Origin: Crenobacter oryzisoli
GTDB lineage: Bacteria; Pseudomonadota; Gammaproteobacteria; Burkholderiales; Chromobacteriaceae
NCBI RefSeq assembly: GCF_030385785.1
Contig: NZ_JAUEDK010000007.1
Location: 1-64,000 of the forward strand
Direction: 5' to 3'
DNA length: 64,000 nucleotides
The translations under genes were made by a program, and so were the position numbers. Numbering within the stretch: position 1 is the first letter of the stretch; every line of letters starts with the position of its first letter. A model generated the notes under the pieces. It saw only the letters and a list, made by a program, of their open reading frames with translations. It was not told the origin of the DNA and made no database searches. Shown in pieces: positions 13,086 to 15,931 of the stretch.

Positions 13086-14141
13086 CTACCGCAGCCCGGC
13101 ACAGGCCAGCAGCTGTTCGACATGGCGGGTGACATCGGCATCGTAGCGGATTTCGCGGCGCGGTTCGGCCAGCCGGGCCGCTCCCGCCCCGACGCGTCGC
13201 ACCGCCTCGGCCAGCGCAGCCTCCAGCGTTGCCGGCTGCTCGCGGTCGAAGCGCAGGCAAGCGGCGTCGCTGAGCACCTCGGTGCAGGCGATATTGTCGG
13301 CCAACACCAGCGGCGTGCCGCACAGCGCCGACTCGATGCCGACCAGACCGAACGGCTCGTAGCTCGAGGCGAGGATGGTGTAGTCGACCGCCTGATAGAG
13401 CTGCTCGATATGCTTCTGATAACCGAGGTCGATCAGGTTGCGCCCGGGCTTGTCGAGCGGCCGGCCAACTACTGCCAGCAAGACCGGCAGCCCGCTCCGT
13501 TCGAACGCCGCGCGCAGCACCGGCAGGCCCTTGCGCTGGTGGCTGGACGAGGGAAACACGAACACCACCTTGTCGTCCGGTAGGCCGAAGCGGCGGCGCA
13601 AGGCTCGCCGCTGCTCGTCGTCCACCGTGACGAAGCGTTCGCCGCTGACCGGCGGGTACAGCGTGGCCAGTTTCGTTGCCGGTACCTGATAAAGCGTCGC
13701 CAGCTCCTTGGCCATCAGCGCCGAGTGGGCAATCACCCGCCGGGCATTGGCGTAGAAGCACTCTTCCAGCGCGATCTGCCGGCTATCCCAGAAACCCGCC
13801 GCTTTGCCGCTGGCGGCGAGGTAACCGCGGTGGGTGCCGCCGCATACGGCGACGTCGGAAGCGGTGTTGCGGTTGCAGCCGATCAAGAGCTCGATGCCGT
13901 GGCGAGCCTTTTCCTTTTCCAATGCCCGGGAAAACGCGCCGTCGCGCAGTTTGCCGGGCAGCCAGCCGACCTTGATTTCAACCGGCTCGATCATCCGGTA
14001 CTCGGCGAGCGCGGTATCGAAGCGACGGGCAAAAAAAGTCGGGGTGATGCCCATTCGCTGCAAACCATTCACCAGGTCGAGGGCGTAGCGTTCGAAACCG
14101 CCGCTGTAACCGAAGGCGTTGCAGGCAATGCCGATCTTCAT
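13086..14141 (-). CDS. Glycosyltransferase family 4 (probable LPS core)
   Basis: 351 residues from ATG 14141 (AGGA upstream; the frame opens at 14207 without support). GT-B fold: N-terminal IACNAFGYSGGFERYALDLV, middle VVFVFPSSSHQRKGLPVLRAA, and the GT4 donor site YEPFGLVGIESALCGTPLVL, whose E-x7-E pattern is intact. It resembles WaaG-type glucosyltransferases. It is upstream of the WaaE-like gene in the same direction with a ~30-bp gap, so probably co-transcribed. Sugar specificity not determined. Confidence 0.82.
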   Translation of the reverse strand: MKIGIACNAFGYSGGFERYALDLVNGLQRMGITPTFFARRFDTALAEYRMIEPVEIKVGWLPGKLRDGAFSRALEKEKARHGIELLIGCNRNTASDVAVCGGTHRGYLAASGKAAGFWDSRQIALEECFYANARRVIAHSALMAKELATLYQVPATKLATLYPPVSGERFVTVDDEQRRALRRRFGLPDDKVVFVFPSSSHQRKGLPVLRAAFERSGLPVLLAVVGRPLDKPGRNLIDLGYQKHIEQLYQAVDYTILASSYEPFGLVGIESALCGTPLVLADNIACTEVLSDAACLRFDREQPATLEAALAEAVRRVGAGAARLAEPRREIRYDADVTRHVEQLLACAGLR

Positions 14142-14221
14142 GCTTGTTCTGTCCTTCCTGTCGTGGCGGCACTGTACCACGTCCCTGCCTGCCGATCCGG
14201 CCGGCAAAGCCCCCGAGTTGC

Positions 14222-15017
14222 TTATTCACATTGCTCCGAGCGATGTCCCGGCCATTTATGAGCGCGAATCATTCCATGAGCATGACAATGGTGAAGCCAA
14301 TGACATAAAACCCCGTTTTTCTGGGGGTAAATCGTAGCCGATAGCGTCTTGCTATCACTGACCATGCCTGGGTTTCGCTCCGTTTAGCCTTATTGGCATC
14401 GTCCTGTCTGTTGGCAGTTCACCTTGCTGGTTTTTGTAGACAGAAGGGCGGTCCGGTTTTCACGGACAGTTCTTTTCTTAGTTATTGTTTTTTTAATTGG
14501 ATGAAACTGATACTAGGGCCAACTTCTCTGTGGATAAGTCATAATTTCTTACGAATTCAATGGGTTACCATGGGTGATGCCTTGTTAGTGGTCGCCATGC
14601 TTACGTTCGTATCGCTTGTGGATAAGTTGTGCCGGTCTGCAAAAGCCCTGCTTATCCACATGCTGGTCGCCGTCTGATCAGTGCCACTTGTGCAGATCGT
14701 TTTTTTGCCCGCGCTCGTTTTTTTCTCTTTGCCCTTTTATAAAATGAAACTACTGATGTACGCTGTACAAATGTGTGGACAAACAGAAAAAACAACTTGT
14801 TTTCAGGGTGTTCTGTTGTTGATAATCATGGTGGCGAGTCGGGTCGCGAGAGCACGATAAGTTGTGGATAAAACCGCCACCTCTTATCCACAGCTGCTTA
14901 TCCACACCCGACTCTCCCCTCTCCCGCTTGGTTAACCACAGCTGCGCTCGGTTACAATGCCGGCCATGATGAACGTGCTGATCGTGCGCACCTCCTCGAT
15001 GGGCGACCTTATCCACA
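14222..15017. other. DnaA-box cluster with T-rich repeats: candidate replication origin
   Basis: Perfect TTATCCACA 9-mers occur at 14652, 14884, 14898 and 15009 (+) and inverted at 14529, 14617 and 14863. TTATTCACA at 14222 and TGTGGACAA at 14774 are near-matches. In the middle, TCGTTTTTTT is repeated exactly 18 bp apart (14697-14706, 14715-14724). The first copy begins with GATC, like the E. coli oriC 13-mers, and AT-rich TTTTATAAAATG follows. The gap 14142-14956 is gene-free, clearly lower in GC than its flanks, and transcription diverges from it. This fits oriC architecture; a DnaA-titrating locus is the alternative. dnaA is not nearby. Confidence 0.6.
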
Positions 15018-15931
15018 CCTGGCCGGCGCTCACCGAACTCAAGACGCACTACCCCAATCTGTCGCTGACCTGGCTCGTCGAGGATGCCTTCGCCGACATT
15101 GCCGCCTTGCACCCGGCCGTGGTGCGGGTGATTCCGTTTTCGTGGCGGCGCTGGCGTCGTGCGCCGTTTTCGCCCTCGACCTGGCGCGAGGTCCGCGCCT
15201 GCAAGGCGGCACTGTCCAGTGGCGGCTGGGACCAAGTGGTCGACCTGCAAGGCCTGGTGAAGAGCGCGATCCCGGCACGCTGGGGCCGCGCGCCGCTGGC
15301 CGGCTACGACCGCAAGAGCATCCGCGAGCCGCTCGCCTGCCTGTTCTATGACAAGACCTATGCCGCCAGCTGGCAGCTGCCGGCGGTCGAACGCTGCCGC
15401 CGATTGCTGTCGCAGGTATTCGGTTATCGGGCCGACGGCGCGCCGCGCTTTGGTGTGCCGGCGCCGGAGAAACCCACCGCCGCGCCGGCCGATCCCTATG
15501 TGGTGCTGCTGCATGCGACCAGCCGCGACAGCAAGCTGTGGCCCGAGCCGCACTGGATCGCGCTGGGCAAGCGCTTGGCCGAGGCGCACGGCTGGCGCGC
15601 GGTGTTGCCGTGGGGCAATGCGAAGGAGAGAGCGCGCGCCGAGCGGCTCGCCGTAGCGCTGCCGGGCGCCTTGGTGCCGGAGCGGATGAGTTTGCGCGAT
15701 GCGGCCGGCCTGCTTGGCCATGCCGAGGCAGTGGTCGGTGTCGATACGGGCCTGTTGCACCTTGCGAACGCGCTCGACGTGCCGCTGGTCGGCATCTATA
15801 CGGACACCGACCCGGCCTCGACCGGCGTGATCGAGACGGTGCGTTCGGCCAACCTGGGCGGCGAGCGTCAGTGCCCGGACGTCGACACCGTGTACCGGAC
15901 GCTGATGACGATGCACGGAGCGCCGCGGTGA
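14957..15931 (+). CDS. waaC: LPS heptosyltransferase I
   Basis: Adds the first L-glycero-D-manno-heptose to Kdo2-lipid A. 324 residues with the GT9 hallmarks: N-terminal VLIVRTSSMGDLIHTWPAL, central LLHATSRDSKLWPEPHW, and VVGVDTGLLHLANALDVPLVGIYTDTDP at the donor site. The start is uncertain: ATGs at 14957, 14966 and 14969 lack a good ribosome site, and a TACAAT -10-like hexamer overlaps the first one, so 14966/14969 on a very short leader is possible. It overlaps waaA by GTGA. A DnaA box lies inside its 5' end (15009-15017). Confidence 0.93.
   Translation: MPAMMNVLIVRTSSMGDLIHTWPALTELKTHYPNLSLTWLVEDAFADIAALHPAVVRVIPFSWRRWRRAPFSPSTWREVRACKAALSSGGWDQVVDLQGLVKSAIPARWGRAPLAGYDRKSIREPLACLFYDKTYAASWQLPAVERCRRLLSQVFGYRADGAPRFGVPAPEKPTAAPADPYVVLLHATSRDSKLWPEPHWIALGKRLAEAHGWRAVLPWGNAKERARAERLAVALPGALVPERMSLRDAAGLLGHAEAVVGVDTGLLHLANALDVPLVGIYTDTDPASTGVIETVRSANLGGERQCPDVDTVYRTLMTMHGAPR

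Follow-up and report, generated by a model that had tools for sequence, protein, structure and literature searches.

Escherichia coli provides a known example of a replication origin away from dnaA, and its oriC is built, in order, of an AT-rich unwinding element, a strong DnaA box and an IHF site. In the bipartite oriC of Helicobacter and Bacillus, two box groups flank dnaA and one unwinding element opens. The locus described here lies upstream of waaC in a 64,000-nucleotide stretch of Crenobacter oryzisoli DNA (the window), and it shares with E. coli oriC both the location away from dnaA and the order of the elements. It differs in that E. coli oriC is GATC-rich and combines a single unwinding element with two half arrays that face each other, whereas the window locus consists of two direct-repeat modules and holds three GATC sites between 14480 and 15020 (541 bp), a number that does not suggest E. 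coli-type sequestration. The presence of two box groups is a feature shared with Helicobacter and Bacillus, but in the window both groups lie in one intergenic region, each with its own AT-rich stretch.

For a related genus, an oriC with eight DnaA boxes was predicted by Ori-Finder in Laribacter hongkongensis; the accessible part of that report gives no gene location, tandem structure or test (PMC3135505), and the accessible part of PMC6323995 names neither Chromobacterium nor Neisseria. Among the matches listed for titles and abstracts of open-licence PMC articles, there was no Chromobacteriaceae oriC at waaC and no tandem-module oriC; DoriC may list predictions. An origin away from dnaA is of a known kind; tandem modules and a box within a coding sequence are undescribed in the literature searched. 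We conclude that positions 14470-15017 are very probably the chromosomal oriC of this genome, situated away from dnaA and composed of two tandem modules. The conserved box layout, the GC skew, the opposition to dif, the proximity to parS and the single box at dnaA all speak for this reading, and they support the first choice of the preliminary description, which was an oriC located among LPS-core genes and not next to dnaA.

Seven perfect TTATCCACA boxes fall within 489 bp (14529-15017), at 14529-, 14617-, 14652+, 14863-, 14884+, 14898+ and 15009+, the sign giving the strand. The whole window contains nine, the two outside the cluster being at 650- and 718+. That seven such boxes lie far above chance, as had been claimed, was borne out by dinucleotide shuffles, which gave a mean of 0.05 boxes per window and a largest value of 2, none of the 100 reaching nine. 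Four boxes with one mismatch (14222+, 14774-, 14817- and 14932+; locus L003) were counted in the cluster instead of the two near-matches mentioned earlier. In the 117 contigs (4.93 Mb) of the source genome, 37 perfect boxes were counted, of which the cluster is the densest group; elsewhere, at most three are found close together. The gap had been presented as low in GC, divergently flanked and gene-free. The first two points hold: the intergenic region (14142-14965) has 49.0% GC against 66.0% for the window, and it separates a gene for a family 4 glycosyltransferase (13086-14141, minus strand; PF13439, E 7.1e-21) from a heptosyltransferase gene (14966-15931, plus strand; PF01075 Glyco_transf_9, E 1.6e-50), which we name waaC without telling heptosyltransferase I from II. 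The third holds only in part, as the box at 15009 lies inside the waaC frame. Separately, the two perfect boxes at 650-726 of the window are opposed, 68 bp apart and followed by an ATG at 737; they are possibly a DnaA-regulated promoter.

The cluster itself was thus correctly picked out, but its tandem modules and its constrained coding box had gone unnoticed. Each module consists of an AT-rich stretch, a conserved GA-rich element, a spacer, a box on the minus strand, about 89 bp, a second minus-strand box, 35 bp and a box on the plus strand. The left module opens with an AT-rich stretch, a ATGAAACT..TACTAG element and a spacer (together 14470-14528, 30.5% GC), which form a candidate unwinding element; the lowest 40-bp duplex stability here, near 14472, belongs to the bottom 0.05% of the window. 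Box L1 (14529-14537, minus strand, perfect) is followed, 18 bp beyond, by an IHF-like site (14555-14567, plus strand; ATTCAATGGGTTA, one mismatch), scored against the IHF consensus, and then by the perfect boxes L2 (14617-14625, minus strand) and L3 (14652-14660, plus strand). The right module begins with a second candidate unwinding element (14697-14773), which contains a ATGAAACTACTGATGTA element and both TCGTTTTTTT repeats. Between 14700 and 14773 the GC content is 36.5%, with a stability minimum near 14717 in the bottom 0.2% of the window, so that both box groups have AT-rich, low-stability DNA beside them, as an oriC should. Its boxes are R1 (14774-14782, minus strand), which reads TTGTCCACA in the window and has one mismatch, and the perfect boxes R2 (14863-14871, minus strand) and R3 (14898-14906, plus strand); an extra box (14884-14892, plus strand) has no counterpart on the left.

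Conservation of this layout was assessed in an alignment of 40 rows comprising the window, 38 named loci (L147-L184) and L197. The rows are related and hence not independent. The named waaC relatives place Aquitalea, Chromobacterium, Vogesella, Crenobacter, Gulbenkiania, Pseudogulbenkiania and Paludibacterium in the family (f1) of water and soil bacteria, which we take to be the Chromobacteriaceae; the nearest one is Neisseriaceae bacterium JH1-16, 91% in waaC. Eighteen of 57 waaC loci, from other groups, were kept out of the alignment as they have no box cluster upstream, only isolated one-mismatch boxes in three of them; waaC was accordingly rejected as a general neighbour of origins. The cluster adjoins waaC in all 30 loci of the first set of relatives, the window's included, and the preliminary description's question whether relatives keep the box layout can be answered: all 40 rows do, with no more than two mismatches in any of the six module boxes. 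The L1-L2 distance is 88-89 bp and the R1-R2 distance 89-90 bp in 40 of 40 rows, and L2-L3 and R2-R3 are both exactly 35 bp in every row; the linker from L3 to R1 is loose (120 to 216 bp). L1 is perfect in 31 rows and has one mismatch in 9, R1 is perfect in 19 and has one mismatch in 21, and R2 and R3 are perfect in 34 and 33, respectively. The extra box is perfect in 8 rows, with one mismatch in 29 and more in 3. As for the candidate unwinding DNA, the 10-bp bin located 40-31 bp left of L1 is 94% A+T across the 40 rows.

The two modules also resemble each other. The consensus left of L1 and that left of R1 are alike: a run rich in T is followed by CCCATTTTTAA, GA.GAAACTG and GAAGG, and roughly twelve bases then lead up to the box. 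When a profile of the right segments was used, 32 of 40 left segments outscored every non-origin match in 1.9 Mb of family DNA, and the left profile did the same for 21 of 40 right segments; the remaining segments, including the right one of the window, did not individually exceed background. Because the profiles match each other, we read the two modules, about 245 bp apart in the window, as the likely product of an ancient tandem duplication of one complete module. Convergent constraint could also have made two modules alike, though this would be the less simple explanation. Of 61 family genomes, 59 have two copies of the opposed 35-bp pair when as many as two mismatches are allowed (its places being known for part of them), the exceptions being G009, with one, and G018, which is 84% complete, with none. 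The reversed control pattern was absent from every genome searched in the family, the order and family f51.

Finer elements are kept less evenly. An IHF-like site with at most one mismatch was found in the left module in 26 of 40 rows against 9% of shuffles, and the best sites share one common offset in 34 rows, the window's own being 1 bp off. No such site was found in the window's right module; across the rows, a weaker one beyond R1 was present in 14 of 40 against 5% of shuffles. The earlier stress on the T-rich TCGTTTTTTT repeats has to be shifted. Two of them do occur 18 bp apart, starting at 14697 and 14715, the first in a GATC context as reported, but what is conserved is the AT-rich stretch left of the first box of each module; the repeats are poorly kept among relatives and were rejected as a conserved unwinding motif. 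DnaA-trios were likewise rejected as an unwinding signature: under a strict rule (three or more NAN triplets no further than 16 bp from a box, as given for the basal unwinding system, BUS, in the accessible part of PMC8287927), 16 of 40 left segments qualified against 24% of shuffles, weakly above, and 7 of 40 right segments against 27%, with the signature absent.

Beyond R3, the elements continue towards and into waaC. The box variant at 14932-14940 (plus strand) reads TTAACCACA in 31 of 40 rows; its distance from R3 is 34 bp in 38 of the 40, and it overlaps a putative waaC promoter suggested by conservation (TTGGTT at 14928, TACAAT at 14953). The interval 14928-14958, with TTGGTTAACCACAG and then TACAAT, stands just before waaC and is among the best-conserved intergenic DNA. 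The last box (15009-15017, plus strand) is read within waaC as the codons CTT ATC CAC and is perfect in 35 of 40 rows. Its leucine codon is CTT in 35 of 40 rows, compared with 3.3% at the 1550 other leucine positions in these waaC genes. The peptide at this place is conserved too; the enrichment of CTT indicates that the box is kept and not the peptide alone, so that the 15009 box constrains codon choice in waaC. The boxes might be merely operators by which DnaA controls the divergent LPS genes, as a conserved TTAACCACA over the promoter would allow, but this would leave the two AT-rich modules and the skew, dif and parS data given below unexplained, and we regard it as extremely unlikely.

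We then compared the chromosomal position of the cluster with that of dnaA. The source genome has dnaA on a separate contig (C55) with a single box upstream, and 14 of 16 dnaA loci likewise have one upstream box, the two without any being cut off at the record start. The cluster is 102-236 kb from dnaA in seven complete relatives, and the window locus does not lie beside dnaA. The skew of the window's own contig was rejected as proof: its cumulative minimum is at 1 kb, and the contig starts only 14 kb from the cluster. In relatives, over stretches of 370-400 kb, in which dnaA lies 111-236 kb off across the slope, the cumulative GC-skew minimum of G056 is at 4,705,000, within 1 kb of the cluster (about 4,704,700-4,705,200), that of G026 at 239,000, 2-3 kb from it (about 236,300-236,800), and that of G001:C14 at 269,000, 14 kb from it (about 254,900-255,700). 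G020, G030, G054 and G032 were each examined in ten 20-kb stretches; the skew summed over 100 kb is opposite in sign on either side of the cluster. On the side facing dnaA, the stretches that make up the 100 kb agree in sign in five of five cases in the first three and in four of five in G032. The skew check proposed in the preliminary description therefore went in favour of the cluster in seven of eight relatives (stretches of 200-400 kb, not whole genomes), where the sign changes at or near the cluster and not at dnaA. In the eighth, G012, the skew runs almost flat between 1.12 and 1.24 Mb, and its minimum within the 300 kb examined, at 1,237,000, is 13 kb from dnaA and 89 kb from the cluster. 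This flat skew between the two places, lowest near dnaA, is what two origins in use, the second one at dnaA, could produce; the lone box at dnaA and the sign change at the cluster in the other seven genomes make such an arrangement exceedingly improbable.

The terminus and partition sites agree with an origin at the cluster. Eleven of 12 single-contig family genomes have a dif-like site (G008 has none), and in all 11 the cluster is closer than dnaA to the point opposite that site. For family f51, dif searches in G260, G075 and G203 gave no match. For the nine genomes of exact length, the distance from the dif-like site is 47.8-49.9% of the circle for the cluster and 44.7-48.1% for dnaA; for G033 and G050, the lengths of which are rounded, the cluster remains closer at both length extremes. 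An exact parS-like motif was found at nine sites in 7 of 15 genomes and was absent from the other eight. The sites lie 8, 19 and 19 kb from the cluster in G032, about 10 kb in G008 and about 18 kb in G260, and farther off in G000 (53 kb), G030 (108 kb), G038 (110 kb) and G050 (122 kb). All nine are closer to the cluster than to dnaA, which is at least 67 kb away, or on another contig in G000. The locus is thus roughly opposite dif and near parS, as expected of an oriC. The alternative offered by the preliminary description was a datA/DARS-like locus, a site where DnaA is titrated or undergoes ADP/ATP exchange; dnaA would then be the place of the real origin. Such loci also hold fixed box layouts, and the strong boxes away from dnaA, together with the IHF-like site of the left module, would suit one. 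Skew switch, dif opposition and parS proximity nevertheless point here and not to dnaA, dnaA has its single box, and dnaA-side loci of other families share the 35-bp pair, all of which renders this alternative highly unlikely.

Those loci came from a search of the order, in which the 35-bp pair (at most one mismatch) occurs in 44 of 399 genomes: 13 of f1, 5 of f51 and 26 of the 380 others. Since no more than 26 of the 380 genomes from other families show it, the pair is not a universal origin mark. In these 26 (f16, f25, f34, f42 and f47), it lies 21-178 bp from a match to the DnaA family, and in 24 it is placed 3' of that match, presumably in the dnaA-dnaN spacer, and we take these loci to be origins of the dnaA-dnaN type. 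They have the opposed pair at exactly 35 bp, as at the Chromobacteriaceae locus, and four f42 loci (L268-L271) have an additional box 88 bp further (at most one mismatch), like the module. They differ in standing beside dnaA, whereas the Chromobacteriaceae locus is beside waaC and has the module twice. The module profile, applied to 12 dnaA-side loci, exceeded the best non-origin match, a dispersed box pair in G056, only in L267 and L264. It recovered all five f51 loci, and the 35-bp pair adjoins waaC in all five. With two mismatches allowed, two copies spaced 245-275 bp apart are found in four of six f51 genomes; of the other two, one carries a single copy and one lacks the pair. One f51 locus, L244 (G152:C77, 1456-1578), comes from a relative with 44% GC. 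It packs 22 boxes, exact or with one mismatch, into 3 kb next to waaC, including two facing runs at 11-12 bp steps, and looks like an expanded version of the cluster. The simplest history, drawn from sequence comparison and not from a tree, would be that a single dnaA-side module was relocated to waaC and, in the course of this move or later, doubled before f1 and f51 split.

Box pairs of another kind are dispersed in these genomes. Perfect DnaA boxes paired in direct orientation, with a spacing of 29 or 30 bp, occur at seven places in the source genome, one at G000:C85:109013-109051 (L129:5013-5051) and the others on C2 (two), C22, C35, C71 and C90. Eight relatives (2.59 Mb) contain 21, with five of the eight having any (L069-L084, L093-L100, L111, L121, L124, L219, L227 and L228). 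Other same-strand spacings up to 120 bp were those of the origin itself (14, 88, 89 and 111) or single occurrences. The flanks of the dispersed pairs are partly repeated within the source genome, and Rfam at gathering scores detected no RNA in a 20-kb stretch with such a pair. The pairs may be DnaA titration sites or a box-carrying repeat.

The anatomy of the locus suggests how the origin would work. DnaA would fill the boxes starting from the strong opposed 35-bp pairs, and IHF would bend the L1-L2 stretch; the right-module site of some relatives would bend the DNA beyond R1. Opening would begin in the AT-rich DNA to the left of L1, perhaps also in its counterpart to the left of R1, and DnaB would be loaded at the opened stretch for two forks. 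The modules are followed by the TTAACCACA box on the putative waaC promoter and then by the box inside waaC. We also consider, as a tentative and rather unlikely extension, that the origin is a twin one, each module opening at its own AT-rich stretch with helicases loaded about 245 bp apart, and that the last box links waaC to origin function.

If the origin were a twin one, the helicase sites would be set by the geometry of the modules while the linker varies freely, and the last box would be written into waaC by synonymous codons, tying an LPS gene to the origin. A two-element origin would make it possible to test how a single opened site receives two helicases that face opposite ways. The constrained waaC codon points to an origin that reaches into a gene. 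For the family, these data also bear on genome records: 3 of 12 single-contig records (G008, G026 and G032) begin at dnaA, which the data suggest is not the origin. The locus offers a visible case of an origin away from dnaA, apparently enlarged to two modules, with dnaA-side relatives to which it can be compared.
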